A stretch of 64,000 bases of DNA from Mesostigma viride. Lineage: Eukaryota; Streptophyta; Mesostigmatophyceae; Mesostigmatales; Mesostigmataceae. The notes under the pieces were generated by a model. The model made no database searches and was not told where the DNA came from. It saw only the letters and a list, made by a program, of their open reading frames with translations. This document shows positions 20,055-59,277 of the stretch, piece by piece (the stretch's first letter is position 1; each line of letters opens with the position of its first letter). Position numbers and translations under genes: made by a program. The stretch covers positions 4,289,151 through 4,353,150 of the forward strand of contig RPFO01000164.1 in NCBI GenBank assembly GCA_009746045.1, in the 5' to 3' direction.

Positions 20055-23000
20055 TCACCGACCCGTCAGCCCCGCCTTGAAGATCTTGGGCAGCTCGTTG
20101 GCCTTGCATCGCCCGGACGCCAGCAGCATGTTCTGCATCTCCCCCACCAACAGCGTGTCGGCCTGCAGGTTCTCAATGTACTCGTGCAGGCCTGCAGAGG
20201 AGAGGAACGGGGGGGGGGGGGGGGGGAATGACACAGGTGGCATGTGGCACGGGAAGGAGGCAGCGAGTCAGCCAGCAGAATAGCGGGCACATGAGCATGG
20301 CACGACGCATCAGGGATGCCAAGGATTTGTCCTTGCAAATCGTGCAGTTATCTGGTGGCCCAGAGGCAAGCCATTGAAGGTCAATGACACAACCAGCGAA
20401 GTGAAGGTTCAAGTTGTCTCACTTAGTATTCTAAACTTCGAGATGAACGAGTCAGATTGGAAGAGACTTCCGCATCACAACCAGCGACACCGGGTGGGAG
20501 TATCACGTACGGAAGCGCCAGTAGTGCTTTGGGTTGGTCGGGTCGTTGATCGTCTCCTCAGTGGCAGGCCGCGTTGTGTATGTGTCACGCAGTGCCATCA
20601 GGTCCTGCACATCCCACGTAAGGCATGAGCGCCCCCCCCCCCCCGAACGAGGGATTTGATGGAATGAGAATTTTGTTCACAGGATTATAGTCAGGTGAGG
20701 ATGTGAGCATGATGGAATGAAATGTTTCGCCATGTGGTCAGATATGGGACCGCACATAAAAAGTCAGCAAACAAAAAAATAATAAAGACAAGATGTAAAA
20801 GTCATTACAGTACAGTTGGTGGGCAGTAAAAGAGGCCCCGCCCTACCTTGCGAAAACGAGGCGGTCACATTTCGTTAAAAGCTACACTATCTACAAAGCA
20901 GGAGTTAACACGAGACGACAGGATGAGGCATGACCCAGTCTACTGCCGTCACTTGGGCCAACTCCGGCAGAAGTCCAACTACATATCTGTGGCATGTCAG
21001 TTCACCCCACAGGAATGGCCACGCTCACTGCTACCCACGCACAGGTCGTTCCCTGCAGCAGTCCAACTCGACTGGCAGGAAAATGGCCCATCCACCGCCC
21101 GCCCCACCATTGCCCCGCTGATACCCCATCACCATTGCTGCACTCGTACCAGCTAATACATCGTGGCCCGCAGCCTACCTGCAGCAGGAAGATGGCCCAG
21201 CCACCGCACTTCACCATATCACCCAGCTTATACTCAACAAGGCAGCACACCCGCCCACACCGCACGCTGCACCAGGAAGATGGCCCATCCACCACGCCCC
21301 ACATGTCGGCATGCCACTACGGTAAGATGCACACCCGCCCACACCGCACGCTGCATCGGGAAGATGGCCCATCCACCACGCCCCACATGTCGGCATGCCA
21401 CTACGGTAAGATGCACACCCGCCCACACCGCACCTGCATCGGGAAGATGGCCCAGCAGCTAGGGGAGCGCAGGTGCTGGTCGATGATGGCGTGCACGATA
21501 CGGGGCTCACAGCGCGTGGGCGCGGGGCCGTCCAGCCCCAGCACGGTCGTGTAGAACCGCTGGGCGCGCTCCGGGTCGTCCTCATACCACGCGCGCGTGG
21601 TGGTCGTGTCGTGGCAGGAGGGAGCGCACACCTGGAGGGCGCCAGGGGGCAGGGGGCAAGGATCCATGAGAATCGAAGTATGATTATCCATCACCCTTCA
21701 CGTCACGTGCTTTTCACTCATTGATTAATTCTTGTTTATCCGTGCAAACCCCATGAACCATCCCGCATCTTCATGGGGTGATTCATGTGGGTGCGTAATC
21801 CGGCACAACAAAGCATGTGGGGGAGCTCCACAACGTCGAGCTCGTATCCACCATGATAGCGGGCTCGTGCGCATGACAGCCGCCAGCATGCTTGTCTGTC
21901 CTTGGTCTGAAAAGGTATGGAAACCCTGCCAACCATCATGGACTAAAGAGGTTAAGTACGCTCACCGTCATGAGCTTAAGAGTAGGCGAGCCGCCGAGCT
22001 TACTGCCATATAGAGGAGGTTCACAGATGTCCAACCAAGAGAAAGGGGCGCACCGTCATGTACTGGAGGAGGTTCACAGATGTCCAACCAAGAGAAAGGG
22101 GCGCACCGTCATGTACTGGAGGAGGTTCACAGATGTCCAACCAAGAGAAAGGAGTGCACCGTCATGTACTGGAGGAGGTTCACAGATGTCCAACCAAGAG
22201 AAAGGGGCGCACCGTCATGTACTGGAGGAGGTTCACTGATGTCCAACCAAGAGAAAGGAGCGTACCGTCATGTACTGGAGGTTTTGAGATATCTAAACAA
22301 GGAAAGGAGCTCACCGTCATGTACTCGTACTCCTCCGGGATGCCGAACTCCTGCAGGTGCGTGTTGGGCATGCGCTGGATGCGCAGGCCCAGCAGGCACA
22401 GGTCCTTGAGCACCTGTCGGGTTCAAGGCAGGCAGAGCCACAGGAGGGATGACATGTGCCAGCGCGAGTACCGAGCCAAGTGTGCAAAAGTGAGTAACAG
22501 AGTGTACCAATGCAACAAAAGTAACAAGAGTGACTGGCTTGACGTGGAGAGGTCCGTGTGGATGCGTAGGCACGGGCGTTGCCTTGTCACCTGCATCGTA
22601 CCAGACAGGCTGCACAATAGGTGCACAATAGGTGCACAAGAGGAGTCAAGAAGTGGTCCGCCGGTACAAGGTCAACTTTCATATTTGATGACAAGATCTC
22701 ACGAACAACGTGGCAAGGGGCCATAGGCACAATGCAGCCCCCGGCAGCCCCCGGCAGCCCCCGGTCTAAGCCCCCTTTTCTTCCTGGAATGAGACCGCAT
22801 GAAGCCAGTTACTGCCACCGCACACAAAACCACGACCACACATCACCATTCGTACCACCCCCCCCCTTAAGTCTCTCAGGTGGAATCCTTCACCCTCTTC
22901 ACCCATACGCCCGAACCCACCCCCCCATCCTCACCGAAGCCCCCGCCGCAGCCACCCACCGCCACACAGGTCACTTACTGGCGGCACGCATTCGGGGATC

Positions 23001-26000
23001 ATGCCCAGGTCCTCCCCGCACACGAGCATGTCGGTGGAGCGCATGAGCACGGGCAGCGTCTTGAGCGCGTTGGTGCGCCAGCAGTCGTCCTGCCGTTTGA
23101 AGAAGTAGTCGTGGTATAGGTTGTTCAGCGTCTCCTTGCTGGTGTGGTTAGGGGGGGGGGGGAGGGGGCAGTGGAGACAAGGAGATGGGAGGGGAGGTAC
23201 AGGTACAAACTGTTCAGCGCCTCCTTGCTGGTGTAGTGAGGGGGGTGAGGGGTATTACACAAGAGGGAAGGGGGTGGTATAAGCAGAGGTACGGGTACAG
23301 GTACGCCTCCTTGCTGGCGTAGGCGACAAAATGGTGCAAGGGACAAAGGGGAAGGGGGGACCAACAAATTCAGTGACGAGTAGAGGTACAAATACAGGTT
23401 GCTTGAGTGTCTCCTCACCGGTGTTGGGGGTGTGTGGGTGTGTGGGGGGGGGCGGGGGAGAGTAGGGACAAGAGGGTAGGAGGGGAGGTGTATAAAAGGC
23501 TTGTTGAGCACGTTCTTGCGGCGGTGAACGACAACAAGGGGTCCGAGACACGAGCAAAGCCAGCCATTGGGTGGTATGGTTAGGCAAGCAGGTACAGGTT
23601 GTTGCTGGGTGGGTGGATGGCAGAGGGGGCAAGGGCAACCGTCAAGTGTGAGAGACAAGAGAAGCTAAGCAAGTGCCTCTGCCTCGGGAAGTAAGATCAA
23701 ACTGTCCTGTTCCGCCACTTTAACCGTGCTTTTAACCGTGCATCTTCCTCCCCTCCTTGCGCTGTTGCCACACCCCAATCCTTATGCCCATCCCTCACCC
23801 AAACCTCACGGCTCGTTTGCCCCTCTTCATGGCACCATTTTGCCCCCCTTGAGCCTCCATATTGCCCTCATTCCCCCCCTCTCCTTCCTTTGCCTTAATT
23901 GCGCACCCGCCCCCCCGCCCCCCTTCCCACCTCTGCTCGTCAAGCTCCTCAAAGCTCTCGTTCTTCATGATGTCGATGCGTGGGTAGAGGTACTTGGGGT
24001 CGTCCAGGTCACGCAGCAGCAGCACGTTCTGGTGGACGGCACAGGGACAAAGAGACCAGGGCAATACGTGTGGGCCAAAGTGGCAGGGGGGGCACAGGGA
24101 CACACAGGGCACGAGACAGGGCATCAGATGGGGATGCACGTGCACAGTGCAAAGGAGCATCAGGGAATGCACACAACACACACAAACACACATGCAGGCA
24201 GGGCATAAGAATGGAAAGGACCAAACACACACAGAGCACAGGGAAAAGGGGGACATGGATGGAGGGGGACGCACACACACAGAGGCAGACAGGGCAGGGC
24301 AACCGCCCACAAGGCACAATGATAACTTGGCGCGAGTCAGCAAACTGCTCTCACCTGGATGAGCTTGAGCAGGCAGTTCTTGGTGTGCAGCGTCTCCTTG
24401 ACGAGCCACTCGGGCGAGCCGTCGCGCAGCTTGAGGTGCGCGCAGATGTCCTTCTCTGTCGACACCTCGGGGCGCAGCTGGGGACGGGAGGCAGCAACAG
24501 GGGCCAAGCAGGGACAGGGAGGTCCACAACAGGGGCAGGCAGAGACAAGGAGGTTCAGTAACAGGGGCTTTTAGTGACAGGTAAGTTCAGGGGCATTGAA
24601 AGGCATGGGCACATAGATAGAAGACACAAATAAAAATAAAAATAAAAATAAAAGAGGAGTTGTAATAATAATAATAATAATATTAATAATAATAATGACA
24701 ACAATCAGGCAGGGCACAATTCCAAGAATTTGGGAAGCCCATCTAGTTGGAGAGGTGCGCGAGTTGGTTGGCGAGGAGGGGGAGGGAAGGTGAGCGATTT
24801 TACTGGACACGACTAATGCTACGGTAGATGTTTGCCTAAAGGTTTTGCATCTGCGGCTCTTATGGTGTGGCCAAGAATCATTTGTCAGGTTTCTGGAAAA
24901 ATTCTACATTTGCGTCAACCATCCACCGAATTCGTTGCAAGCGGCTGGTAGACCATCCATCGAATTTGCAGCAAACGGCTCGTATGCTTTCGTTGCGCCT
25001 GCCGAAACGTCAGTCAGACACAAGCAGTTGTTCCTGCGCCGGTGCCGAAATGTGCTCCACTGCAAGTGTTCTAAACGCCACGTGTCCAACACACGCATTT
25101 CTTGATCGTAATAACAACGACCACGGTGACAAAGACAGCAGCAACAACGACGATATTAACAAAAGGCGAGCATGTCCCACCCTTTCACCCTTATGTGGAC
25201 TGCTACCCCACACCCTACTTCAACCCAGGCGCCCTACCTCGAACGTGTCTGGGCTGACTTCGTTGAAGTAGTGCAGCGCGATGTCGCGCCATTCATCCCC
25301 AAAGTACTCCTGTTGGACGCCACATGGGGGAAGGGGGGGGGAGGCCGGGGCACCATGACAGCACCGCACGCGTGACGTTGTCACAGGGTCAGCGTGATGT
25401 CGGTCGCATGGCGACCTGTGGCGAATGCCAGCCGTCACAGTCCATCACCATCACCAGACCAAGAGAGGTGTGTGCTAAGCATGGCAGCGAGACCATTGCA
25501 AAACGGCGACGCCTAATTTCACATGACCTGCATGGAAGCGCAATTGCCTGAAGGCTTCTCTAGGACACACGAGAAATGATAGACCCGAATGCACCCACAT
25601 AACGCTCCTGTGTTCCTTGAGTTGCAACCGGATCACCCCTGCCCCCATAACAACCACCATCCCACCCTCGTTGCTAGACCCAATATACTACAACCTCTCC
25701 CATGAACCCACAGCCACATCCTAAACACCCCATCGACAATTGGGGCAAACACGCGACCCACCGCCACATGCAAAAAAACACTTAACCCAGAACCACAGCG
25801 TTTACCCCTCCCACAGGCACGGGCCTCACCCTTGAGCCAAGCCCGCCCCCTACAAGGGCGGCTCTCAGTTTGTCTATCAGCCTCGCCCCTCACCTTGAGC
25901 AGGTGCGTGCGCACGTAGGGCTTGGTCAGCCGGTCCAGGTCCCACAGCCCGTGGCTCTCCAGCTCGTGCGTGGTGAGGGGCACCGAGGGCCGGAAGTGGC

Positions 26001-29000
26001 CCAGCAGGCCCGTGACGCCGTGCGCGGGGATCTCCCAGATGCGGAAGAAGCCCAGGATGTGGTCGATGCGGTACGCGGTGAAGTACTTGGCCATCTGGCT
26101 CAGACTGGCGAAGGAGAAGGGTGGGGAGGGGGGTGGGGGTGACGACACAGAATGCAGTGTTTCAAGGTGTCGCAGTATGCATGAGGTTCAGTGTGTGAAG
26201 TACTTGGTAACCCGGCCCAGGCTGGTAAGTGGGAGAGGGGGGAGGGGGAGGGGGAGGGGGGGGACGGGCACGTCTTGTCTGGGTATATTAAAGACAGAAA
26301 ATATGTAGCAGAATGTCAGGTCTTCAGGCTGTTAAGTACTTGGCCATCTGGTTCAGACTGGTGAAGGGGGGATGGGGTAAAGGGGGGATGGGGGCGAGGG
26401 GGATGGGGGCGAGGGGATGGGGTGGGGGCGGGGATGACAAAGAACGGAAGGCTTCACAGTGTAGCAGAAAACAAGGTCTAAAGTTGCCAGGCATGGGGTG
26501 TGCAGGCGTAGCAGAATGGGAGGCGCAAGGAGTAAGGGGGGGAGGGGGGCGGTGAAAGGCGCCGGGCGTTGGGCTGGAGTAGGGTCAAAAACACAGGATA
26601 TAGGGGTGACGGGTACATGGCTTCCATACGCCTTGGCAACATGCCTTGACACGGTCCACTGGCTAACTGGCCGGTTTCCACCCTCTCTCTTTTCCTCATC
26701 ATCTCACTTCAGGAGGGATACATCGCCTTTGCTAAGCCCCCTGTTTGCATCAACGCCATGAACAGCTGGCATCCTTTGCGCAAAGGACACGCGGGCGCAT
26801 GGACCCCATTCTAGCTTGGATGCCCAACTCCCCTAATCCCCGATCCCGTTACGCGTATCCTACCCTGCGCCCTGGTCCTGGCAGAGCCACATGGCCATGA
26901 TTCGTGACCATTCATGACAAGTCATGGCAATTCGTGGCAATTCATGACAAACCATGACAAGTCAAGAACACTCGAGAGACGAGTCACCCGCTCACCGGCT
27001 GCGCCACCATGCATAGTTGTCGTGCGCCATCTCCTCCCAGTTGTACGTGGGGAAGCCCCAGTTCTGGCCCTTGGCGTCAAAGTAGTCTGGCGGCGCCCCC
27101 GTGGACATGTGCATGCGAAAGAGTTTGGGGAACATCCACGTGTCCACGCTCGCACGGTCCACGCCGATGGGCAGGTCGCCCTTGAGCACGACGCGCTTGC
27201 TGCGCGCGTGCGCCGACGCGGCCAGCAGCTGCTTGTGCAGGTGGAACTGGAGGAAGTAGCGGAACGCGATGCTGTCGTAGTAGTCCGTGTCCTTGCGGCA
27301 CAGACGGTCCAGCTGGATAGGGAGAGGGACAAGGAGACCGATTGAAAAGATGGGTCAGCATATCCCCACACTAGGACCTAAACACATAAAACAAAGAGGG
27401 ATTAGGGAATGGGGTAGGGGGGAGGAAGCAGGGGTTGGAGGGGAGAGGTGGGTAGGAGGACGGGAGGGAAAGAAGGGTGGGGTGGGGTGGGGGGGGGGGG
27501 GTTAAGACAGGCACCAGGGGAGGATGAAGCTTGCCGGCATGGCATCTGTGATGACGACAGAACGGAGGGAAAGACGAGGCATGCAGCCAACGACGCGTGC
27601 ACAGACAATGGGTGCAATATTCAGATGATGACAGGCTACCCTTAGGGGTGGCAAAGAAAGCCCGATAGGCATGTATTCGAGAAACCCTGCCCCGGTTGAA
27701 AAGAGAGAAAAGGCAATCAAGGAGACAGGGATGCAAGGCGGGGTGTGCCAAAAGGTCACCCCTGCGCATCCATGCCGCGTTATGGAACCACATTATGGCT
27801 TTGTAATCTGGCATCGCTATATGGCATCACATCACGTCACCGCATTACGACATTACGTCATGCATGGCGTTACGGCATCCATCGCACGTTGACCCGCTCA
27901 CCAGCTCGTTGTTGACGCGCGAGAAGAGGCCCCACTTCCAGTGCTCGGCGGTGCCAAACAGGTTCTTGAGGAAGCAGAAGCACGCGTACGGGCGCAGCCA
28001 GCCCTGGGGAAGGAAACCGCATGGTCCCAAGCGCAGAGTCTCGTAAGCATCATAGAAGAGCATGGTTCCAACTGCATCGTTCAAATGCATGCTGCACGAG
28101 CATGCTTTGACAGCATACTGTCTAAGTGCATGGTTCAAGACTTGATGGTTTGAACATGTGGTTTATGAGCACCGTTTAGAGCATCGTGGTCCCGGCGCGC
28201 GTCGCAAGCTGGGGTTTGAGACTAGGAGCGAAGCCCAGCAAAGAACCCACACTGTAAAACTCACATGGTATTGAAGAAGGGGAGATACATCATATATAAA
28301 AAAAACAAAGATGCTAACAATGTTCGACAAAAAACGAATCGGGCCATTGCTAGCGTGCTGGACACCTCAGGAGCATAAATTCGTGACACAGTGACCGCCA
28401 CTGATGACACAGTGACCGCCACAGGCTCAGCATGTTCTCAACCACCACATAAGTCTCACCATGTTCTCCTCGTAGAAGCGCTGGAACTCGACCGAGCCCA
28501 GCACCTCTGTCTTGTCGATGTCATACACCTTGCGCGCGATGGACAGCTTCACCTCCATCGTGCGGTCGTAGTCCACCGCCTGGGGGTAGAGGGGGGTGAG
28601 GGCAATAGAATAGGGGGTAGGGGTAGGGTAGGGAAAGGGATAGGGGCGCATGACACGCATCACGCTTGAACAAGAGCCTTTTTTTGAACAAGGTGAGGGC
28701 AATAGAATAGGGGGTAGGGGTAGGGTAGGGAAAGGGATAGGGGCGCATGACAAGCATCACGCTTGAATAGGCGGTAGGGGTAGGGTAGGGAAAGGGATAG
28801 GGGCGCATGACACGCATCACGCTTGAATAGGGGGTAGGGGTAGGGTAGGGAAAGGGATAGGGGCGCATGACAAGCATCACGCTTGAATAGGGGGTAGGGG
28901 TAGGGTAGGGAAAGGGATAGGGGCGCATGACACGCATCACGCTTGAATAGGCGGTAGGGGTAGGGTAGGGAAAGGGATAGGGGCGCATGACAAGCATCAC

Positions 29001-32000
29001 GCTTGAATAGGGGGTAGGGGTAGGGTAAGGAAAGGGATAGGGGCGCATGACACGCATCACGCTTGAATAGGGGGTAGGGGTAGGGTAGGGAAAGGGATAG
29101 GGGCGCATGACAAGCATCACGCTTGAATAGGGGGTAGGGGTAGGGTAGGGAAAGGGATAGGGGCGCATGACAAGCATCACGCTTGAATAGGGGGTAGGGG
29201 TAGGGTAGGGAAAGGGATAGGGGCGCATGACACGCATCACGCTTGAATAGGGGGTAGGGGTAGGGTAGGGAAAGGGATAGGGGCGCATGACAAGCATCAC
29301 GCTTGAACAAGAGCCTAGAGCAGATAAGTCCACCCAAAGCTTCGGCAAGCGTACTCTAATGGATTAAAAACAAGTCCGCGCATTGCATGTGCTCGAAGTT
29401 GTTTGAGGGAAATATTGGGCACCTGCTGGCGACTGCCAATGAGTCCGCACAAGGCCATTTGAAGCGTGCCCCAACACCTACTTGTTGGTGCTTCCAAAAA
29501 AAAAAAAAGAGAAAGCCTTTGACATAACACGGATGCCTACATAATAATGCTGGACAGAATACCATTTGCTCGACCACCCTAACAGATGACCTTGGCTTCT
29601 CCTCCCTGCACAATGCATTGGCATTCCATGTTGGTTTGGTTTGGTGTGTGTGTGTGTGTGTGTTTCCTTTCTTTCTCCCCGGCATCCCGTACACACGCCA
29701 GAAACGACTGCACCGGCCCACGTGCTGAACTTCTCACCCCCCCGCCCACGTACAGGTAGATCAAGCTCCTGCCGTGCCGCCTCGATCTCCTCCTGCACGA
29801 ACATGCAGGAGATACATGACAGGACAGGCAGGCAAAGGGGCGCAGGGCAGGGCAGGGGAGGAGTGCAGGGCACGGCAGTGGCGGCGTTGAGAACAACGGC
29901 TAACAGTCGTGGGGAGCTTGCGGGAAGTAGGGCGTGAAAGGATTGTGATCCTAGTTCAAACACAGAATAATGCAGATCAGAAGATGTTGAGAAAAACATT
30001 CACAAGCACTACACAACCACCTGGCCCTCGATACACAATCTTTCCGCTAAATGTGACAGCATGCAACACCTGGGGAGGAGGGGAAGGGCTGCCTGCCAGC
30101 AATCCCTCTCCTTTTGAACAGAGCTCAGAGCATCTGAACCAATGACTTAGCTGTCTTGTCAACCTTCTACGTGTCCATCCACACCAGAAAATTGTCAACA
30201 GAAAGACTCAACCCACTCACCATGCCACGCACCACACAAGCACACCAGCTCTTCAACTCTGGTTCCTCCTAAAGAAGAGCTCATCTCTAGTACGATTGGC
30301 CGACAAGGCACGCCCCCTCCCTCCCCGCCCATGTGTTGCGCTGAATGATGCAAGCTGCTCACTCATGAACCCAGTCAGTCAAACACGCCCACGCCCACAA
30401 CTCACCTCAATCTCCCGTGGCAGCCGGTCCGACAGCGCTTGCAGCCGCAGGTAAAGCGGGTGCAGCGCAAAAACCGAGAGTGAGCTGAGGAACGCAGGGG
30501 ATGCCAGGGGGCAGGCAGGGGGGTGGAGGCAGGCAAACATGTGCGGATCGGAGGTCACCGACACGCAGCAGGCATGCACAACAGGTATGCGAGAACAGGT
30601 GAGGCAACAGACGTCTTGGAGCATACATTTTCTTTCTTTCTTTAAAAAAGCGCCGGGGCGGGATTGGGATCGTGGGTGGGTGGGTGGGTGGGTGGGTGGG
30701 TGGGTGGGTGGGTGGGTGGGTGGGTGGGTGGGTGGGTGGGTGGGTGGGTGGGTGGGTGGGTGGGTGGGTGGGTGGGTGGGTGGGTGGGTGGGTGGGTGGG
30801 TGGGTGGGTGGGTGGGTGGGTGGGTGGGTGGGTGGGGGCGGGCGGGCGGGCGGGCGGGCGGGCGGGCGGGTGGGTGGCTACGAAACACGCAGGGACACAA
30901 GGGCTGGCTCGATGGGCGTGAACGAGCCAGGGAATGCCCTTCAGGACGGGGATGGCGGCAAGGTGGAGGATATGGATCATGCAGGGCGATGCTGCTTGAT
31001 GTCTGTTTAACGTCGCAAGATATCTTACCAAGACGAATGAGAAAAAAGGCCTAGTTATTCTGGACCGCAAAAGCCTGGCCGACCCGCCCATGTTTGCACC
31101 GCATCCATGTCAAATGCTTGCCAGAGCCATCCCACGGATCCATAAGCCTGATGCCCGGCCATGACATCCCTTGGTCTCGTGATCATGAGTTATCCATGGT
31201 AATGAGATCCCTGCATCTGCATACACTTGATTACCATGCGCCCACACGGGTTCCACGCACCTGTATGGGTACGAGTCCCACCACATGCCGTGCACGCATG
31301 TGTCGTTGACGGGCAGGATCTGAACAAGCCGGAACCCGGCCGAGGCGGCCAAGTCGATGACCTTTGTGAGGTCGAGGAACTCCCCCGCGCCCACGCTCTC
31401 GCGGCTGCGGATGGAGAAGACAGGGACCGCCACGCCTGCAAGCCGCCACGGCTTGACCTGGTGGTGCATGGGGCAGGGGGGGGGAAGGTGGACACACATG
31501 CACGTGTTTATGTTTGTGTGTGTGTGTGAGCGTGAGCGCGTGTGTGTGCATGAGCGTGAGCGAGAGAGACAGAGACAGCGGATGTCTATTTTGGATCTTT
31601 CTGTGTAGTGCATGTGTGCGCGATGATGCTAAGAAAACGGCAGCAGGTGCGCACATGCAAGAGCTCCTCCCCTGCCCAACTCATGGGCACAGCCTAAACC
31701 CAGGCACGACGCTTGAACCAACCACCAGATCGACGACGTGCATCAGTTGGGCAGTAGCATAGGAATTCACAGTGCGTGCTCATACCTAATGTGCTCCCTG
31801 ATCACCCCCCCCCCGGCCTCCACCCCATGTCTCATTCCCCAATGTCCCCATACCCCCCCGCCCCCCCCACGGAACACACCCGGAAGAAGAAGTCGTCCAC
31901 ATGCATACGCGTGCAGGGCCGCGTCGCGCCCTCGTCCACCCACAGCTCGTGGCACGCGCCAAGCTCGGGCGTCAGGTTGTCGAACGCGTCCTTGATCACA

Positions 32001-35000: not shown

Positions 35001-36565
35001 GCCATGGGAAGCCGCTGCGCATGAGCAGGCGTAGGCAGGGAGCCACTTTCGATATCTAGCCGTGCAAGCGACGGAATGGGCGCCACATGTACCTTTTCCC
35101 CTGGCTCGGTGCGCGGGCATTTGACCACCATTGTGACCACCACCATCCCTGCAATCAGGACCAGGGCCACCCGGTGGACAGAGATGGTGAGCCAAGGAAA
35201 CAAATAAACCAATCAACATTTGAAGGTGCTGTCAGCCTTGTCAGGGTACTGGAACACGTGTTTCCATGACAACCGTGCCATATTGTGCAACCCCTTTCAC
35301 ACTTGCATCTCAACAACAAACCGTTTGATTACAAGCCCTCTGCCAAAAGGCCTTTTGCACAGAAGCCCTCTGCTTGATGGCTTGGGTTTGCAAGCAAAGG
35401 CGGGTGCTGCCAATCGCGATGGGCTTGACAGCACGCATGCCAACGGAAAGAACGCCATGGGTGGCCATTCTTTGAGTCAGTGCAATAAATCCTTACAGCT
35501 CCTGTCTCGTGTATAAGATGTTTAGAGAGGGCCAACAGAGGGCCAACAAAGGACACAACCAGAGTCCAGAGACCTTGTGGGCCAGCACAGAGTTTGCTCA
35601 TGTGCAGGTGCAATGGTATAATAGGCGACGGACACACTGGCAAGATCTATGCCAACCTAGCCGCATAGGCAAACAGCACTTATATTTGGGCATCTATTCT
35701 TGTCAGAGAGCCCTAGAAGACAACATAATCTAGGGACAAGACTCGTGATGACCAGGTGGACTACGGCAGGTGTAATTTTGTACTACACACACACACACAC
35801 AAAGCAAATCGGAAAATGGGAATGCTGGGAAGAAATAGGCTCGAAAGCATTAATCCATCTGCAAGATTACAAAAGTACTGAAATTGCACAGAGTATGGGG
35901 GTTGCTTGTTCTAACAGCACTACAGCTTAGAATGCATAGGTTAGCGTACCTGGCGTGGAGTCCCGTTTAATGCGTGGCATGACCTCCTCGTCGACAATTT
36001 CAGGATGAGCAAAAATCACATCCTTGTATGCGGCCTTGGTGAGAAGGTTCTCGTAAGCCGATTGATCCTGGTCCAAAACAACAGCCATTGCGAACCCGCG
36101 CCGTAGACCCCAAAGTTAGAACTTCGATGTGAACAGACCGTGCATTTCAACTAGACCCGTTTACAAAATGCCAACGCCCACGCCTTCGTCAACACGCCAG
36201 CTTACCTGCCAGGTGTCGAGAATGTTCACGACATCCCCGCCTTTAAGGTTATTTAACAAGGTCACCACGCGCGCCGGGCTGCCCTCCCACTTAAGGACCT
36301 TAAGACGCTCGTCGACAACGACGTACTGATACTCCAAGTTCGTTCCTAGGGGAAATGACAGCGTCGCCTGCCAGTAGAGGTCGTCACCACGATGCAATGG
36401 GGTCATCCATACTCCCTGCTTTACGTTCCAGCTTCCGAAAAGGTGGCCTGGGCCTGAAATCATCAAATTTTCGCCCCATACGGTCATATACTTCACTCTG
36501 AAATGCACCGTGACACATTTTGGAGCCAGGCGCTGCAATACAACTCCTTCCCCACCAGATTCCAT
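20055..36565 (-). CDS. DPE2: 4-alpha-glucanotransferase, DPE2 type (CBM20-CBM20-GH77)
   Basis: Twenty exons on the minus strand join without frame error to 945 codons (plant DPE2 about 955): 36565-36206, 36067-35950, 35148-35093, 33522-33395, 32009-31880, 31457-31261, 30484-30406, 29792-29754, 28579-28460, 28003-27902, 27312-26996, 26104-25894, 25309-25238, 24477-24355, 24028-23931, 23138-22979, 22413-22315, 21631-21434, 20604-20511, 20191-20055. DPE2 transfers glucose from maltose to cytosolic heteroglycan during night-time starch breakdown. Seen: two starch-binding CBM20 domains (about 10-125 and 160-270), then GH77 split by the DPE2-type insert (about 600-720). The catalytic set is complete: D563 in YRIDH (nucleophile), E759 in GEDLG (acid/base) and D811 in SCHD. 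There is no transit peptide, consistent with the cytosol. The start is MESGGEGV. All introns read GT-AG except intron 4. Confidence 0.93.
20204..20226. repeat. Poly-G run in the last DPE2 intron
   Basis: About 17 consecutive G on the plus strand (poly-C on the coding strand), within 20-40 bases of the exon 20 acceptor. It acts as part of the pyrimidine tract and is a likely source of length variation. Confidence 0.6.
21060..21434 (-). repeat. 84-bp repeats copying the DPE2 exon 18 / donor junction
   Basis: The end of exon 18 reads, on the plus strand, CTGCATCGGGAAGATGGCCC. In the intron this segment plus the donor recurs at about 21350 (84-bp spacing) and 21266, with more degenerate copies near 21181 and 21070. 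Two units are nearly identical over 84 bp. Because 84 is divisible by three, use of a decoy donor could stay in frame. Confidence 0.8.
22016..22314 (-). repeat. 53-bp repeats copying the DPE2 exon 17 / donor junction
   Basis: About five units at 53-bp spacing (22021, 22074, 22127, 22180, 22233) plus a shorter one. Each carries CACCGTCATGTACT, the plus-strand image of exon end AGTACATGACG followed by donor GTG. All keep the GT of the 5' splice site. The array sits directly behind the true donor at 22314. Confidence 0.88.
23139..23540 (-). repeat. Degenerate copies of the DPE2 exon 16 acceptor and start
   Basis: Exon 16 begins, on the plus strand, with GTTCAGCGTCTCCTTGCTGG (ending in its acceptor). 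Diverged versions recur at about 23207, 23300, 23400 and 23500, each followed by a G-rich stretch like the one behind the true acceptor. Spacing is about 90-105 bp. Confidence 0.7.
26185..26370 (-). repeat. Copies of the DPE2 exon 12 acceptor and start
   Basis: The exon 12 start reads, on the plus strand, GAAGTACTTGGCCATCTGGC then TCAGACTGG. It recurs with changes at about 26188-26228 (GAAGTACTTGGTAACCCGGC) and 26330-26365 (TAAGTACTTGGCCATCTGGT), each followed by a G-rich tract like the real acceptor region. Confidence 0.75.
28590..29310. repeat. 60-bp G-rich tandem array in DPE2 intron 8
   Basis: About twelve units of 60 bp containing AGGGGTAGGGTAGGGAAAGG and CGCATGACACGCATCACGC, beginning about 15 bases behind the exon 9 acceptor. 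The G-rich strand is the template for DPE2, so the transcript carries C-rich tracts. Several runs of three or more G per unit suggest G-quadruplex potential. The divisible-by-three unit keeps long false frames open. Confidence 0.9.
30674..30870. repeat. (TGGG)n / (CGGG)n microsatellite in DPE2 intron 6
   Basis: About 41 TGGG units followed by eight CGGG units. Long GWVG/THPP frames across it are artefacts. It lies in the intron between exons 6 and 7. Confidence 0.92.
32010..33394 (-). other. Probable U12-type AT-AC intron (DPE2 intron 4)
   Basis: On the minus strand the intron opens ATATCCTTG at 33394, matching the U12 AT-AC 5' splice site (ATATCCTT), and ends CCAC at 32010. This joins GTC AA to G TAC, giving FPVKYQYVIKD, the expected CBM20 strand. 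A GT-AG alternative is in frame but deletes VKYQ and needs a weak GTCAAA donor. No strong TTCCTTAAC branch site is visible near the 3' end, which is the main weakness. The intron also contains about five copies of a roughly 39-bp repeat with CAAGCCCAGAAAGCCTTGCC (32820-33000). Confidence 0.75.
33581..34710. mobile_element. hAT-like non-autonomous DNA element in DPE2 intron 3
   Basis: The element at 33589-34702 has terminal inverted repeats TAGGGTTGTATCGAA, and is flanked by GCACAGTA (33581-33588) and GCGCAGTA (34703-34710), an 8-bp target duplication with one mismatch. T/CAGGG-type ends and an 8-bp duplication are diagnostic of hAT elements. It is about 1.1 kb with no transposase frame, and the interior carries repeated TATTCGAATCCGAATAT-like motifs. 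Confidence 0.75.
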
Positions 36566-36754: not shown

Positions 36755-36763
36755 AGATATATA
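36755..36763 (-). promoter_or_regulatory. Possible TATA box of DPE2
   Basis: Minus-strand TTATATATC lies about 190 bases upstream of the DPE2 ATG, in a GC-rich context. This would leave a 5' untranslated region of about 160 bases. Only position and sequence support it. Confidence 0.25.
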
Positions 36764-39500: not shown

Positions 39501-39533
39501 AACGACCCAACGACCCAACGACATGGCCGCGCG

Positions 39534-42500
39534 ATGTCGCAGGAGCTGATTCAGGGCTTGTGTCGCGATCTGTCCCAGCATCAGCAGCGGCAGCGGCAAC
39601 TTGGATGCAACGACTACCCGCTTGCCCAGCACGCGCCAGAGCCCACCCCTGGCATCCCGCCCAGGGCGTTGGCGCACCTACCGCAACTTCCCATCATCTC
39701 CCAGAGTGACGCAGACAAGGCCCCTGAGTGCACGGCGCTGATCAACCTGAGTGGCCAGCATGACCTCAGCAATCACGGCGTGCGGAGCCACGCTGGCTCT
39801 GGTGGGTCCGGTCGAGGGGGCGGTGTCCGCTTTGCCATCGGGGGCGGGTCCGGGGGCTCCAACCGGCCGTCCTCTGGCGGGGGTAGCAAGTCGGGTGGTG
39901 GGAGCTCCGGCGCCTCTGGGGCTGATGGCGGGGATGATGATGAGGAAGGGGGTGATGAGGATGACGATGACGAGGAGGATGAGGATGAGGACGAGGAGGA
40001 CGAGGAGGGCGGTGACGGCGGCGGCGGGCGGCGCAAGTCAGGCCCGCGGCTGGTCCGCGTGAGCAGCCGCTCGGCGAAGCAGCGGGAGCGCCACACGGTG
40101 GAGCGCATGACGATGGTCAAGGAGATGGAGCGTCTGCAGAACACGATCTCGCACATGAAGAAGAAGGAGGAGGAGCTGCAGGAGGAGAACCGGCAGCTCA
40201 AGAAGCTCGAGGTGGAGATGCACCAGGTGAGGGGGGAGGTGCCGTAGCAGGAGGGGGGAAGGGGGAGGTTCACCCGGTGAGGGGGAGATGCAGCAGGAGA
40301 AGAAAGGGGAGGGGGGAAGGGGGAGGTTCACGCGGTGAGGGGGAGATGCATCAGGAGAAGAAAGGGGAGGAGGGAAGGGGGAGGTTCACGCGTTGAGGGG
40401 AGATGCAGCAGGAGAAGAAAGGGGAGGGGGGAAGGGGGAGGTTCACGCGGTGAGGGGGAGATGCAGCAGGAGAAGACAGGGGAGGGGGGAAGGGAGAGGT
40501 TCACGCGGTGAGGGGGAGATGCAGCAGGAAAAGAAAGGGGAGGGGGGAAGGGGGAGGTTCACGCGGTGAGGGGGAGATGCAGCAGGAGAAGAAAGGGGAG
40601 GGGGGAAGGGGGAGGTTCACGCGGTGAGGGGGAGATGCAGCAGGAGAAGAAAGGGGAGGGGGAAAGGGGGAGGTTCACGCGGTGAGGGGGAGATGCAGCA
40701 GGAGAAGAAACGGGAGGGGGGAAGGGGGAGGTTCACGCGGTGAGGAGGAGATGCAGCAGAGAAGAAAGGGGAGGGGGGAAGGGGGAGGTTCACGCGGTGA
40801 GGGGGAGATGCAGCAGGAGAAGAAAGGGGAGGGGGGAGGGGGAGGTTCACGCGGTGAGGGGGAGATGCAGCAGGAGAAGAAAGGGGAAGGGGGAAGGGGG
40901 AGGTTCACGCGGTGAGGGGGGAGGTGGCTTTGGTGAAGGGAGTGGTGCCCCAGATGAAGAAGGGGGGGGGGGGGGGGGGGGGGTAAGGGTATCGTAGTGG
41001 AAAGATCTTCCAGGTGAGGGGAGACTTAGGACTATGGAATCCGACCCCCTGGGTGAGGTTGCCCGTAGGCTTTGGACTAGGTGATGATGAGTAGTGCAGC
41101 TGGTGAGGGTGGGGAGGAGAGGTGAAGGACCAGGTGTGCGTTCGAGGCTGACACTTTCTCAGAGCAAATGGATTGTCAGAACCAGTTTAAGGGGGAGAGG
41201 CATGGAGTTGCACCAGTTGAGGGGGGAGAATTAGCAGGTGAGGGGGGGATGAAAGCACCAGGTGAAGGGTATGGGGGGGGAGTGAACAAATGGCGAGGCT
41301 GGGGGGGAGGATGTTTCCTGTGAGGGGGAATGGGAGGCATGTGGGGGGGGGGGGGGGGTGCCCTGCGCAGCCGTAGTGCACGGATTCGGGCAGGGGGTCA
41401 AATATCGTTTGCCCAAATTCCTCTCCCTTCCAGCTGCTAAGCTGCACTGTTGGGAGAGGGGGACGCGATGGTGGGATGGGAGCTGGGCATGGGGGTCACG
41501 GAGGCAGGGGGGTGACTGTGGGGAATCCTTCATTGTAGCCAGTGTAGAGCCCAGAGCAGCTGTCAAATGGTATTAGACAAGGCAACTGTCAGAACCAAGG
41601 GGGCAATGGCTCCATCGCATCCATTTTAGGTGGGCCAGTTTTTAGACAAGCCATGCCTGCGTGCACAGCATCGTAACAGTCGTGCAACGTGCCTGCCAAT
41701 TTCCCCTTGCATGTGCCCCGGCCGCGCTTGTACCTGTGCACGTGTACCTGTGGTGCATGCCTTGCTGAGCCTCTTTCTTTTGGTCGTTGCTCCGCCTTCC
41801 CCCCTCTTGTTGTGTGCGCCAGCTCAAGCGCACCAACCTGGAGCTGACGATGGAGAAGCGGCACAGCCACGTGAAGCTGCAGGAGGTGGAGGAGAAGAAG
41901 CACAACCTGGACGAGAGCATGATGACGCGCACGACGTACCGCGAGATGGAGGCCAAGATCAACACGCTCACCGAGGAGATCGACAACCTCAAGAAGCAGG
42001 TAAATAAATAATAAACAAGTGAAAGCTTGTTAGAGGGCTCGCACAAGAAGTAGGTAAGAGGAGGGGTGGGGGGGAGGGAATGCACCAGGGCAAGGAGCTC
42101 GATATCCTGAAGCAGGTGGGAGGGCAAACCTCGCCTTGAGTGGGCAAAGCGCAAGGAGCAGGTTAGGAACTGCAGGAGGTCAAGCGTATAACGGCAAGGA
42201 GATGGACACCCTCAACAAGTAGGTACATGGGCAAAGCGCAAGGAGCAGGGTAGGAACGGCAGGAGGTCAAGCGTGTAACGGCAAGGAGATGGACACCCTC
42301 AACAAGTTGGTACATGGGCAAAGCTCAAGGAGCAGGGGGGAGGGTGAGCACGCGGAGGAGTTGAGAGGATTGGAGGGGGTACAGAAAGAGGGAACAGGAG
42401 GGTTAGAGATCAACAACCTGAAGAAGCAGGTAAAATGAACAAGCGAGGGTTGGTGAGAGGGTGCGCACGGGAAGCAGGTGAGAGGAGGGGAGAGGCAAGC

Positions 42501-45500
42501 AGAGAGGGAGGAGATGGACAACTTTAAGAGGGCAAACCTTAAGGAGGGGCAGCTAAGGGAACAAGCCTTGATGAGCAGGTGAGAGTGTGGGAGGAGGAGA
42601 CGGAAGGTAATTGCCAAGCAAGCGGAGGGAGGTTGCCAGGTACGAACCAGAATCAGCGCTGTGCTGCATCCCTGGCCATACCATTCATGGCCATTCTGTT
42701 CCGAGCGTGCTCCAAATTTTCGTAAATTTCCGTCACATTGCCGACTTACTGCTCGCAAACTGCTGCGTGTGCCGCCCTTCCCCCCCGCCCACCACCACCA
42801 CACACACACACACACACTTTTGCCCACACTTGGCCACACACTTGGCCCCTGCCTCCTCCCTGTTCCTTACGTGTGTTTGTGCCCAATATCCCGGCGCTCG
42901 GCAGAACGAGAGCCTCCAGCAGGCGCGCTTCACAGAGCTGGAGGAGGTCGTCTACCTGCGCTGGGTGAACGCGTGCCTCCGCTACGAGTGCCGCAACGTG
43001 CGCCGTGTGCCCGGGAAGTACACCGCGCTCGACCTCAACAACTCCAAGTCCCCCCGCTCGCAGCAGCTCGCGAAACACCTCATGGCGCTCTACAGCAAGC
43101 AGGACATGGGCGGCGAGGGCGGCGACCTGCTGCCAGATGGCGCCGCCGGTTTCGATCCCAATGTTCCCAGCTTTGGCGGGCTGGCCAATCTCATCCCGGG
43201 CGGGCGCACGCTCGCGGCACCTCCTGGCAAGCCCAAGAAGGGCAAGATGGGTGCGGGCGCGGCCGCGTCGGGTCTCTCGGGCGCGTTCGATGAAGACGAC
43301 TCGGACAACGAGCTCGACGACAAGGCCGAGGTGCTGCAGACCTTTGGCAAGGGCGGGGACCCAGGCGCCGCGGTGTCCAAGCAGAGCCTCATCGCCGCGC
43401 GCAAGGCGCTCAGTAAGACTGCGAGTGGCATCCCCAAGAGCCGCCCCCCCGGTGCCGGTGGCGAGGACGACGACGACGATGATGACGACGACGATGACGA
43501 CGAAGGCGGCGTGGTCTCGGCTGCGGGCGATGCGGATCTCCGGCGCGCGGTCGCAGCTGCCAGTGGCGGCAGCAAGAAGAAGGACGAGAAGAAGAAAGAG
43601 GCCAAGAAGAGCAACGTGAGCACGGCGGGCCTCCCGCCCAAGCAGGCCCGCAAGGCGCTACCGCCGCCCGTCTCGGGGGATGATGGAGGGGAAGACGCGC
43701 CATCGGGAGGCGGGGGTGGGCCGCCGCGCCCTCCCGGGCCGCCTCCCCCGCCGGGTGGTCCCCCGCGCCCCCCTGGTGCGCCCCCTCCCCCGCCCCCCCC
43801 CGGCGGCCTCAAGAAGATGGCGACCAAAAAAGGTGGCGTCCAGCGCGCGCCGGACGTCATCCAGCTGTACCAGAAGCTCTTCAAGCGCGACGGCTCGTCC
43901 AAGCTGGCGGCCAAGAAGGACGACGAGGGCGGCCACGATGCGCGCAGCGAGATGGTGAACGAGATCGAGGGGCGGTCGACCTATCACATGGAGGTGGGTG
44001 GCGGGTGGCTGCTTTGACCGATCACATGGAGGTGGGTGGCGGGTGGCTGCTTTGACCGATCACATGGAGGTGGGTGGCGGGTGGCTGCTTTGACCGATCA
44101 CATGGAGGTGGGTGGCAGGTGGCTGCTTTGACCGATCACATGGAGGTGGGTGGCGGGTGGCTGCTTTGACCGATCACATGGAGGTGGGTGGCGGGTGGCT
44201 GCTTTGACCGATCACATGGAGGTGGGTGGGGGGTGGCTGCTTTGACCGATCACATGAGGGCAGCCAAGTGATGGGCGGGTCAATGCATCACGAGGGTGAC
44301 CCCCCACCTCCATATGATGAGGGTGTCTGAGGTCACTTTGCAATCCAACAAAGCTGAGGTCACTTTGCAATCCAACAAAGCTGTTGGGTGGTACATGAAT
44401 CTCGTGGGTGGGTATCCGATGGATAAGGTGTAGTGCAGGTCGTGGGCGGCTCCGTGGGGTGGTGGATGGGCTGCACTCGCTGGTGGGTGTATGCATGTGA
44501 TAGCGACGACGGCAATGTACTAGTCCATTGGGCATGAGTTGACAAGGCCATGGGGCATGAATTGAATAGTCCAACGGGCATGATCCAGGGACGCTTGTAC
44601 TTGGTGGTACTTGGTGGGGGGGCGGGGTTCGGGTGAGCGTTGGCTGGATGGGCGGGTTCATGTGCGTGGGAGGGGTTATTAACGTGCTAGCCAGGGCTAA
44701 GAATATATGGCATATTTTCGATCTGTCCTTCCATGTCATGCTGGGGACAATCCAACCGATCCAGCCAACTCTTCACCAACACCCAACAACCGCTCGATCA
44801 TTCCCCCACCGGCCACCACCCACCCTATCATCCATCCCTATGCCCCGGAAAACACGCGTGCCAACGACAGGTCAAGCAAGACGTGGAGGTGCAGGGCGAG
44901 TTCATCAACTACCTGGCTTCCGAGGTGGCGTCGCTCAAGATCCGCAACATGGACAAGGTCGTCCTCTTCGTGGAGTGGCTGGACAACGAGCTGTCGTACC
45001 TTGTCGACGAGCGCGCGGTGCTCAAGCACTTCCCGGACTGGCCCGAGGGGAAGACGGACGCGCTGCGCGAGGCCGTCGCCGAATACAACGATCTCAAGAA
45101 GCTTGAGCAGAAGATCCTGAACACGCAGTGCGACGACAAGGTGCCCGTCGATGGCGCGTGCAAGATGATCTTCAAGGAGATGGACCGGTGAGTTGGTGTG
45201 CGATGGACTGGGGAGTGGGTCTGGGAGCTGGGGAATGAGGCCCCTTCAGCAAGGAGTTACCCCTGCGATGCCTAGGATTCGGGATGGACTGGCGAGTGGG
45301 TGTGGAATGACTGGGGAGTGGGTGTGCGATGGACCGGTGAGTGGGTGTGCGATGGACCGGTGAGTGGGTGTGCGATGGACCGGTGAGTGGGTGCGCGATG
45401 GACCGGTGAGTGGGTGCGCGATGGACCGGTGAGTTGGCCGGAAGTATAGAACCTGATCCCTTCGTCGTGGGGTTTCCCTTGTGAAGCCTAGGAGTGATGC

Positions 45501-47416
45501 GCGAGTAAACATGGGATAGGCTGGTGAGCGGGAGTGCTGCCTTGTGCTCGAGCTCGGTTACTGCCCCACTACCAAGAGGCCAGCGAGTGGGTGCCCCCGA
45601 TACCTATGGGGATACATAAGGGGACAAGGTCAAGCGACACATGGGGCGTGACGGCTGCTAGGTGATCCAGGCCGATTGGGCGTGTAGATAACCACCCCCT
45701 GTGAATTGGTCTCCATCGCCTTCCGCACCTGCTGGCTGCTTGTGATTCCTCTGGTTTTGCCAGCTGGTTGCCTGACCCTGTCTCCTTTCCTGGCTTACCC
45801 TGCGCACCCTCTGGCACACGCTTGCCCATGCGTGTCTGTCTGCTGGCACACACCCATCTGCTGGCCCACGCAGCGTGGAGGACAAGGTGATGCAGATCCT
45901 GCGCACGCGCGACGCGAACCAGAAGAAGTACAAGGCGTTCGACATCCCGTCTGACTGGCTCAACGACAACGGCATGATTGGCAAGGTGAGCGCCGATAGT
46001 TTCGTGGCGCTTAAGAATAAAACAGCCTTCTAAAACAAGGGTTCCCAGGGTAGCCCTCGGCAGTCCCCCCTGGTTGGCCGAGGCATGGCTGGTGCCAAAC
46101 ATGTTTGTGGTGGTCCATGCTTGGGTGCATGCAAGTGCTTGTTTGCAGTCCTGGGTTTCTGGGAGTTCCTGTTGGCTGGCAAAGCCCAGCATCAGCGTGC
46201 AGGGTCTCCTGTTCATAGTATGGCATCTTATGGAAAGATAAATGTGAATGAAACGAAAAGTGGTTGCCTTGTGATGATGGGTGACGGAATGGAGGATGGT
46301 ATGCAGTGAGTCTATCCCCGTCTTATAATGCTAAAACTCTCTGCCCTTGTGCTCATGTCTCTTATCACAGACGATCATTAGGGTATCCCTGTACTCCTCC
46401 ACGGTAGCTCATCTGCTTCTGTCCTCTTTCCCGCCGCCCTCCCTGTGCCCCCCCCCCCGCCCCCCCCCCCCCCCCTTACTCCCCCTCCTCTCAAACACCC
46501 CAGGTCAAGGTGGCCTCCGTGTCACTCGCGAAGAAGCTGATGCAGCGTGTGGCCAAGGAGCTCAAGCGGCTCACGGGCGACGCCAACGAGCCGATCCGCG
46601 AGTACCTGCTGCTGCAGGCCGTGCGCTTTGCTTTCAAGGTCCACCAGGTAGGGCGCCTCGCGGTGCATACTCCACTAGGTACCATGCCCCGCACTTCTGT
46701 GGCCCACCGTGGAAACTGCTGCGCTTTGTGCGATCCACCAGGGCAAGTGCTTTGCGTTTCATGGTCCACCATCTAGGATGCCGCACATCTTCATGGGCCA
46801 CCAGTACATCCGTCACTGCACGTGATCTGTCGGTGCGTCTACCTCGTGCTGTTGGGTGGGGTGTATTGTGTCTTTGGCCGCATGGGTGCCCATGTGATCA
46901 GGGTTGCTGGTATTACGTAGCCACGGGAGGCATAGGCCGCGCAGCCACATCGGGTGCACCTCAATAGAGCTGCAATCAATGCCGGACTTAAATGCCGAAT
47001 CCCTCACATGACAGAGCCCAGTTTGTTCTCACAAAGACTTAACTCACAGTCGGACAATGTAGACCGCATCCCGAGCATGTGCTATCATGTACCGGTGCCA
47101 AAAAATTTCTTCCTCCTGTGCAGTTTGCCTGTTTGGAACTGGCATCAATCGATGACACCTGCTGCTCCCCATCATAATACGCCCTGTTGCACTCCCCCCC
47201 CCCCCCCCCCTGTTGGCCCCGCCCTGCCCCAAAACGCCCTGTCATACTGGCCCCCCTTGCCCCCTCCCTGCGCAGTTTGCGGGCGGTTTCGACGAGGAAG
47301 CCATGCGCGTGTTCGAGGTTCTGCGTGCGATCGCGATGGAGAGGGAGGAGGAGATGCGCGCCGCGGGGGTGGTTAACGACGACGGAGGGGAGGGGGAGAT
47401 CCCGGTCGAGGCATAG
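39534..47416 (+). CDS. CHUP1: CHUP1-like chloroplast unusual positioning protein
   Basis: Exons 39534-40226, 41823-41999, 42905-43993, 44871-45187, 45874-45985, 46504-46647 and 47276-47416 join in phase to 890 codons (Arabidopsis about 1000). CHUP1 sits on the chloroplast outer envelope and drives light-dependent movement through short actin filaments. Seen: an Asp/Glu-rich tract (about 135-165), a long coiled coil (about 180-305), the hallmark VYLRWVNACLRYE (306-318), a second acidic tract, a profilin/actin-type polyproline segment (about 562-592), then the conserved C-terminal domain with LVDERAVLKHF, DWPEGKTDALREA, LLLQAVRFAFKVHQ and FAGGFDEEAM. All splice sites are GT-AG. The ATG at 39534 gives MSQELIQG, with no hydrophobic anchor, so an upstream exon may be missing. 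The protein lies divergent from DPE2. Confidence 0.9.
40227..40925 (+). repeat. 58-bp repeats copying the CHUP1 exon 1 / donor junction
   Basis: About twelve units of 58 bp fill the start of the first confirmed intron. Each contains GGTGAGGGGGAGATGCAGCA, resembling the exon end GTGGAGATGCACCAG plus donor GTGAGGGGG. Each unit holds at least one plausible GTGAGG donor. Confidence 0.85.
40926..41822 (+). other. Rest of CHUP1 intron 1
   Basis: G-rich intron with poly-G runs at about 40962-40982 and 41343-41358, and several CAGGTGAGGG-like decoy donors. No other element was recognised. The acceptor AG is at 41821-41822. Confidence 0.5.
42000..42535 (+). repeat. Dispersed copies of the CHUP1 exon 2 / donor junction
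   Basis: The exon 2 end, GAGATCGACAACCTCAAGAA then GCAG|GTAAAT, is echoed at about 42098, 42202, 42285, 42405 and 42512. The 42405 copy (GAGATCAACAACCTGAAGAA, GCAG, GTAAAATGAACAAG) also retains the first bases of the intron. The copies are 80-120 bp apart and diverged. Confidence 0.8.
43994..44270 (+). repeat. 38-bp repeats copying the CHUP1 exon 3 / donor junction
   Basis: Six to seven nearly perfect 38-bp units, each with GATCACATGGAGGTGGGTGG. This reproduces exon end TATCACATGGAG plus donor GTGGGTGG. The true junction at 43993/43994 is the first unit. Confidence 0.9.
45188..45440 (+). repeat. 23-bp repeats copying the CHUP1 exon 4 / donor junction
   Basis: The exon end ATGGACCG plus donor GTGAGT is repeated as GCGATGGACCGGTGAGTGGG. 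Five clean units at 23-bp spacing (45328, 45351, 45374, 45397, 45420) follow several degenerate ones. Every clean unit keeps a strong GTGAGT donor. Confidence 0.9.
46648..46815 (+). repeat. Degenerate copies of the CHUP1 exon 6 / donor junction
   Basis: The exon 6 end GCGCTTTGCTTTCAAGGTCC then ACCAG is echoed at about 46710-46745 (GCGCTTTGTGCGATCCACCA) and 46746-46772 (TTTGCGTTTCATGGTCCACC), and by a GGCCACCAG near 46797. Divergence is high. Confidence 0.55.

Positions 47417-57697: not shown

Positions 57698-59277
<1,580 letters not shown>

Follow-up and report, generated by a model that had tools for sequence, protein, structure and literature searches.

Mirage-like minisatellites at exon-intron junctions in genes of the streptophyte alga Mesostigma viride

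Introduction

Mesostigma viride is a green alga near the root of the land-plant lineage. We analysed a window of its genome, a stretch of 64,000 nucleotides (contig RPFO01000164.1, positions 4,289,151 to 4,353,150), in which introns of DPE2 and CHUP1 contain copies of the adjacent exon edge together with its splice site. Are splice junctions the seeds of these repeats, as a sequence-only reading had proposed, or places where ordinary tandem duplications survive? As described below, junction copies in introns are real and frequent in the M. viride genes examined.

Results

Gene models and splice junctions

In-frame models were built in the window for DPE2 (20 exons), CHUP1 (7 exons) and a PTGR-like gene (4 exons). 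The first two are as follows.

20055..36565, minus strand: DPE2 (4-alpha-glucanotransferase), in-frame model running from 36565 to 20055, 20 exons, 19 introns, 945 aa
39534..47416, plus strand: CHUP1, in-frame model, 7 exons, 6 introns, 890 aa

The DPE2 product has PF02446 and CBM_20 domains and, over 72% of its length, matches a Mesvir1 model at 100% identity; CHUP1 has five homologues, three of which are named CHUP1. The homologue check of junctions covered those of DPE2 and CHUP1. Nearly all junctions of the two genes were covered by homologue alignment, where CHUP1 rows P0122-P0125 were unaligned at some junctions and the Mesvir1 DPE2 model P0001 was without exons 4 and 5. Our own spliced aligner recovered 18/19 DPE2 introns with one Klebsormidium DPE2 as the query, the missed one being an AT-AC intron, and 6/6 CHUP1 introns with one Riccia CHUP1. 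Wherever a homologue decides, the true sites are the 5′-most donor and the 3′-most acceptor, and both Mesvir1 DPE2 models concur in the outer splice sites of DPE2 exons 12 and 16-19.

Copies of exon edges in DPE2 and CHUP1 introns

Exon-edge copies were scored intron by intron, with 300 dinucleotide shuffles of the intron as background, and array periods were taken from Tandem Repeats Finder (TRF). At all nine junctions named in the sequence-only reading, the neighbouring intron contained exon-edge copies, and the TRF periods (53, 84, 58, 38, 23 and 87) bear out its statement that unit lengths differ between introns. The copies are listed below, with the numbers above threshold.

22013..22325, minus strand: 53-bp array (TRF) across the DPE2 exon 17 donor (exon end 22315); 6 donor copies, the sixth (21960-21972) outside the array
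21245..21454, minus strand: 84-bp array (TRF) across the DPE2 exon 18 donor; 3 donor copies; an extra copy at 21177-21198
40250..40920, plus strand: array of 58-bp units (TRF and edge copies) with similarity to the CHUP1 exon 1 donor; 2 donor copies, just one unit of the array clearing the threshold by itself; a decayed copy at 41197-41226
42141..42434, plus strand: CHUP1 exon 2 donor edge in decayed copies, partly in tandem with an 87-bp period (TRF and edge copies); 3 donor copies
43978..44256, plus strand: 38-bp array (TRF) across the CHUP1 exon 3 donor (exon end 43993); 6 donor copies
45283..45437, plus strand: 23-bp array (TRF) of the CHUP1 exon 4 donor edge; 5 donor copies
46752..46782, plus strand: CHUP1 exon 6 donor edge, copied once in decayed form without its GT (edge-copy scoring)
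26200..26365, minus strand: two decayed copies (26336-26365 and 26200-26225) of the DPE2 exon 12 acceptor edge (edge-copy scoring)
23211..23424, minus strand: DPE2 exon 16 acceptor edge, copied three times in decayed form (edge-copy scoring)

The DPE2 exon 9 donor and the CHUP1 exon 7 acceptor were marginal additional cases. When exon-only terminal 24-mers were used, significant copies in the gene's own intron were found for 6/28 donors in the window, and when the same test was moved into the exon by 12, 24 and 36 nt the counts were 1/27, 0/26 and 1/25, respectively. CHUP1 exon 4 fell outside the six (P 0.23) because only about 9 exon nucleotides were copied.

As had been read from the sequence, the copies grade from exact to badly decayed and contain decoy splice sites. 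GT was kept in 24/26 donor copies (24/27 including the marginal DPE2 exon 9 copy) and AG in 4/5 DPE2 acceptor copies. A mechanical reading of the use of the copied sites, in which copies that had lost GT or AG were included, gave an early stop in 29/31 cases; DPE2 exon 17 at +102 and CHUP1 exon 6 at +125 were without one.

Junction copies outside the window

An independent set of genes that were not picked for the feature consisted of 13 HSP70 loci (23 introns) and CarB (16 introns). The HSP70 set was 13 stretches, mostly multi-exon loci, of 44 matches, taken before any intron was seen; the matches on C2011, C1535, C612, C446, C2178 and C1 and one on C1580 were left out. Six doubtful introns (2 and 3 of L021, 2 and 3 of L024, 3 and 4 of L029) were removed from 29 before counting. 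Copies were found at 6/39 donors and 5/39 acceptors, compared with 3/578 exon-interior 30-mers; the feature thus recurs outside the window, in both HSP70 and CarB. In CarB introns 6 and 10 the arrays overlap the junction, and intron 10 has an exact two-copy 41-bp duplication of 27 exon and 14 intron nucleotides, which looks like a recent event.

By gene, junction copies numbered 5/12 in CHUP1, 5/38 in DPE2, 0/6 in PTGR and 8/32 in CarB; one HSP70 locus (L020) had 3/6 and the twelve others 0/40. Clustering by gene was not significant in a permutation test (P 0.14), and the genes with junction copies sit on three contigs. A tuned ab initio gene finder, trained and scored on the same window (23/31 exons exact, 44/46 predicted junctions right), gave two genes in the 100 kb upstream, a CS-domain gene with donor copies in two of its 7 introns and a gene judged by eye to be Ran-binding-like, with no copies in its 5 introns. 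Both were excluded from the junction counts.

Copy rates at junctions, in introns and in exons

We pooled the 67 introns of DPE2, CHUP1, PTGR, the 13 HSP70 loci and CarB. Copied 30-mers were found at 21/134 junctions, 10 of them from the window that had been picked for the feature and 11/78 outside it, and at 87/670 intron-interior positions (P 0.41). In contrast, exon-interior 30-mers were copied in only 3/822 cases (window 0/244, HSP70 1/352, CarB 2/226), and none was copied at fixed exon places 60-90 nt off the junction (0/123; 134 were placed and the 11 that lay beyond short exons were dropped). Junctions are about level with intron interiors, and exon interiors hardly ever have copies.

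Donor copies were found in 14/67 introns and acceptor copies in 7/67 (P 0.15); in the window, duplication was rarer near acceptors than near donors. The frequency of copied 24-mers by distance into window introns showed no peak at the donor, with 12/56 at 0-24 nt, 0.17-0.26 at 24-312 nt and 0.14-0.36 out to 600 nt. Going into the exon, it was 6/55, then 1/51, then 0/25. Similar rates at junctions and intron interiors, with nearly none in exon interiors, are predicted by uniform tandem duplication combined with selection on exons. Moreover, a tandem duplication that carries exon sequence into an intron has to span the junction, and anchoring at the junction is thus expected without seeding.

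Placement of tandem arrays

Strong arrays were defined by a unit of at least 20 bp and a score of at least 100. In the window, 6/10 strong arrays contained the donor junction by homology, where uniform placement predicts 0.49 (P 1.8e-6). Across the full set of thresholds used, P values lay between 1.8e-6 and 5.9e-5 for arrays, and reached 4.9e-4 when each intron contributed a single array. When only physical overlap with the donor junction was counted, the result ranged from 3/10 (P 0.01) to 3/40 (P 0.085). In the independent set, the donor junction was contained in 2/5 strong arrays compared with 0.28 expected (P 0.026), and in 2/23 arrays at the loosest threshold (P 0.16). None of the TRF arrays contained the acceptor junction by homology, despite the decayed acceptor edge copies, all of which lie outside TRF arrays. 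Uniform placement does not account for the array counts, and this speaks against the explanation that we prefer below.

Discussion

The arrays are likely to be mirage-type minisatellites, that is, tandem duplications that survive neutrally across junctions, grow, decay and lengthen introns. The underlying events are probably ordinary tandem duplications that survive because splicing removes the surplus copies. Duplications with units of about 20-160 bp would arise all over the genes of this alga; those within coding exons would be purged, and those within introns or across a junction would be tolerated, because the outermost original splice-site pair still yields the same mRNA. Two copies may then become arrays by unequal exchange or slippage, and later point mutations would decay the arrays while the intron lengthens. 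Their persistence is presumably neutral, with the outermost splice sites presumably used in vivo. A modest added tendency at donors is possible. It seems rather improbable that tandem duplication has mutational hot spots at the donor junctions of M. viride, so that a large share of its long introns would consist of accumulated, decaying remains of the introns' own 5′ splice junctions.

The alternative closest to the original proposal is that some feature of the donor, for example the G-rich intron start, polymerase pausing or an R-loop, causes breaks or slippage from which arrays begin. The excess of donor-containing arrays (6/10 in the window, 2/5 in the independent set) argues for such seeding, as do the preponderance of donor over acceptor copies (P 0.15) and the skew of G over C, which is highest within the intron next to the donor (+0.34 at +6 to +26) and flips before acceptors (-0.44 at -26 to -6). 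However, the skew at the donor was equal (+0.35) in the 21 introns without donor arrays, copies are found at acceptors too, and junction 30-mers were not significantly above intron-interior ones, whether all junctions (P 0.41), donors alone (14/67 vs 87/670, P 0.09) or the independent set (11/78 vs 34/390, P 0.14) were compared. The seeding proposal thus has partial support from array placement and is not established by the copy rates; we regard seeding as unlikely, if worth keeping in mind. Birth of the introns themselves, in which a tandemly duplicated exonic AGGT segment supplies donor and acceptor from one repeat (the Rogers model), has been reported in other organisms (PMC3087553; potato RdRp, PMC4974935), and the units here include GT or AG. 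Nevertheless it is very unlikely: donors scored on average 7.75 against their own acceptors and 7.36 against others (SD 1.8), the maximum of 12 for an own pair is the 99th percentile of the others, and donor arrays stop well short of the acceptor. On these similarity scores we rejected placement of donor and acceptor in copies of one unit.

Tandem arrays are difficult to assemble, but an assembly or polishing artefact is scarcely credible when periods differ, many copies are decayed and genes on three contigs are affected; in addition, the published 441.8-Mb assembly, which we infer to be the 439.9-Mb assembly searched here, is described as using PacBio reads and an optical map (PMC6947507). 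It is equally hard to believe that selection maintains the decoy sites for a function, such as helping donor recognition by offering further binding sites for U1. GT is kept in 24/26 donor copies, and the copies of CHUP1 exons 3 and 4 fit the U1 consensus no worse than the true site does (11/11). Yet copies decay (CHUP1 exon 6, DPE2 exons 12 and 16) and the majority of introns are without them.

Because homology marks the outer sites as right, the junction copies offer a natural system for probing how the splicing machinery picks one donor or acceptor where several are equal. Such decoys should also be anticipated in gene finding and repeat masking.

Comparison with known systems

Introner elements are mobile introns with near-identical sequence common to introns of different genes. 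When donor regions were compared between introns, in the window only, the maximum local score was 18 over 60-mers. Rogers proposed in 1989 that introns are gained by tandem genomic duplication, and a potato RdRp case is described (PMC4974935). Both that process and the one in M. viride, as far as this account goes, copy splice sites by tandem duplication, but here existing introns seem to lengthen, and donor and acceptor are without a common unit. In the human gene IFI6 (6-16), a minisatellite at the donor contains several splice donors (Turri 1995, as described in PMC4526556). A minisatellite at the donor is shared with M. viride; in the IFI6 description units can act as donors and downstream units are alternative donors, whereas the M. 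viride copies are predicted sites.

The sequence-only reading knew of no named system, but mirages are of this described kind. They are amphioxus minisatellites that span exon-intron boundaries, at 5′ or 3′ junctions, with varied unit length and with AG/GT kept in many repeats; regular splicing is described as undisturbed, and length, for which amphioxus Adh3 is a reported case, as unstable between haplotypes or somatically (PMC3087553, PMC3902484). The M. viride tandem copies likewise span 5′ or 3′ junctions, have varied units and often keep AG/GT. Arrays lie over the boundary at DPE2 exons 17 and 18, CHUP1 exon 3 and CarB introns 6 and 10; both boundaries are affected (donors in 14/67 introns, acceptors in 7/67); and many but not all repeats keep the site (24/26 GT, 4/5 AG). 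Two Mesvir1 models are consistent with undisturbed splicing at DPE2 exons 12 and 16-19. The host differs, being a streptophyte alga rather than a cephalochordate, and the arrays are known here from the genome. Mirages are reported in these papers from a handful of amphioxus genes; of the 19 M. viride gene loci inspected, two being ab initio predictions only, 5 had junction copies. With copies at 21/134 junctions in a deep streptophyte lineage, junction-spanning tandem duplication is a plausible general route to longer introns.

Gene models of the window

Three genes of the window (contig C1402, positions 4289151-4353150, of the 439.9-Mb assembly that was searched) could be modelled in frame, with 28 introns in total.

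6693-11900, + strand, PTGR-like gene, in-frame model
36565-20055, - strand, DPE2 gene, in-frame model
39534-47416, + strand, CHUP1 gene, in-frame model

DPE2 and PTGR had Pfam support. The CHUP1 model fell below every Pfam-A cut-off; three of the five homologues found bear the name CHUP1. None of these five is a protein from Mesvir1 (the Mesostigma viride gene models) that corresponds to this CHUP1; a distant relative, Mv06862, was the sole candidate. Alignment comparison with homologues backed the junctions of DPE2 and CHUP1, of which our own protein-to-genome aligner recovered 18/19 and 6/6 introns, respectively, and those of PTGR were placed by frame, splice signals and domain only. Mesvir1/7132 was 100% identical to the predicted DPE2 model over 72% of the model length and lacked exons 4 and 5.

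These two exons (31880-33522) are skipped by the Mesvir1 model P0001, and a second model, P0002, appears to overrun the AT-AC boundary in another frame. DPE2 intron 4 (33394-32010, minus strand) starts with ATATCCTTGCC and ends with CCAC, and the reading KYQYVIKD across it aligns with homologues. It is probably a U12-type AT-AC intron, judged by the consensus of that class; inspection by eye found no match to the U12 branch point. On the acceptor side of DPE2 intron 8 lies a 60-bp array of ten units (28705-29307) with no junction inside. Inverted 3.35-kb copies (15888-19237 and 51054-54406, 99.6% identity) stand on either side of the DPE2-CHUP1 segment, and a run of about 505 consecutive GTT copies occupies 57709-59224. 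When the 28 introns were pooled, GC skew reversed along them, from +0.34 directly past donors to -0.44 directly ahead of acceptors.

Copies of splice junctions in introns

Every intron was searched for its own two edges, a donor edge with 20 nt of exon and 10 nt of intron and an acceptor edge with 8 nt of intron and 22 nt of exon; 300 dinucleotide-shuffled versions of the same intron set the copy threshold. Donor copies were found in 8/28 window introns and acceptor copies in 3/28, or in 7/28 and 2/28 without two marginal matches. The sequence-only reading had listed DPE2 and CHUP1 introns containing copies of their own exon-intron boundary, and this search recovered all nine cases. It is the edge of the exon that the introns resemble: 24-mers made up solely of the last exon bases had copies at 6/28 donors, and 24-mers moved inward by 12, 24 and 36 nt were copied in 1/27, 0/26 and 1/25 cases.

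To avoid the selection of the window, we used E. coli proteins to find genes outside it and took their splicing from the alignments. In HSP70 (13 loci, 23/29 introns retained), donor copies occurred in 2/23 introns and acceptor copies in 1/23, all three in one locus (L020, contig C1801); the twelve remaining loci had neither. The carbamoyl-phosphate synthase large subunit gene, CarB (contig C1735; 17 exons, 58% identity, 1067/1073 residues aligned), had donor copies in 4/16 introns and acceptor copies in 4/16. Its intron 6 opens with a 47-bp array of its own donor (4.2 units). In intron 10, an exact 41-bp two-copy duplication spans the donor, and the acceptor is present as three decayed copies; this duplication, the sole clean recent case inspected, showed by eye no clear microhomology at its breakpoints. 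Exon-interior 30-mers were copied in 3/578 cases in HSP70 and CarB. The junction copies are thus real and recur in other genes of this genome, and 13 of the 17 counted loci (PTGR and twelve HSP70) had none.

Are junctions preferred?

Base-level and array-level measures disagree on whether junctions are special. Among the ten window arrays (Tandem Repeats Finder, unit at least 20 bp, score at least 100), six held a donor junction by homology, where uniform placement would give 0.49 (P = 1.8e-6), and three physically overlapped one (P = 0.01). The same homology criterion gave 0/40 for acceptors and 1/390 for exon-interior 30-mers. Because the window had been picked for this very feature, the independent set (the HSP70 and CarB introns) is the only fair test, and a modest donor excess is therefore only possible: depending on the threshold, 2/5 (P = 0.026), 2/8 (P = 0.05), 2/10 (P = 0.06) or 2/23 (P = 0.16) independent arrays held a donor junction.

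At the base level, where P values are rough because windows inside one intron are not mutually independent, junction 30-mers of all 67 introns were copied in 21/134 cases versus 87/670 for intron-interior 30-mers (P = 0.41). Donors alone gave 14/67 (P = 0.09) and acceptors alone 7/67 (P = 0.70); in the independent set the comparison was 11/78 versus 34/390 (P = 0.14). Exon-interior 30-mers were copied in 3/822 cases overall. Across the window, the copied 24-mer share showed no donor peak and fell inside the exon; in the final 300 nt ahead of acceptors it was 0.06-0.19, below that in the first 300 past donors. This pattern is the expectation of duplication at random places combined with selection against altered exons, and any tandem duplication that brings exon sequence into an intron must start at the junction, whatever its cause. 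The copies can be explained without the new junction-seeded process proposed earlier, which they support only weakly.

Discussion

We suggest that tandem duplication is widespread in this genome. Duplications inside a coding exon would change the protein and be lost; those in an intron or across a junction would still allow the old mRNA to be made from the outermost original splice sites, and the copies would subsequently decay where they stand. Duplication, distribution and decay are shown by the data; neutrality, splice choice and the mode of array growth are what we infer.

Copied splice sites, if used, would mostly be harmful, with an early stop predicted in 29/31 cases. GT was kept in 24/26 donor copies, and 25/26 matched the U1 consensus no better than the true site. 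Copied sites are thus often intact, and where they equal the true site, as at CHUP1 exons 3 and 4, position must decide.

The junction copies belong to a known kind, the minisatellites spanning exon-intron boundaries named mirages in amphioxus. In Ebner et al. (2010; PMC3087553), mirages are described at both 5′ and 3′ boundaries of globin genes, an Adh3 case is cited and RT-PCR suggests that regular splicing is left undisturbed. Excerpts of other papers add PGBD5 and troponin C (PMC3902484) and a minisatellite with several donors in human IFI6 (PMC4526556). For the Mesostigma genome, one paper puts the share of repeats in intron space at 30.1% and the mean intron length at 1141.9 bp (PMC6947507), and a term search of a second genome paper matched neither 'intron' nor 'splice' (PMC7027972). 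Among the matches listed in the open-licence literature, none reports mirages in algae or plants. The Mesostigma junction copies are a new occurrence of mirages, and apparently a frequent one.
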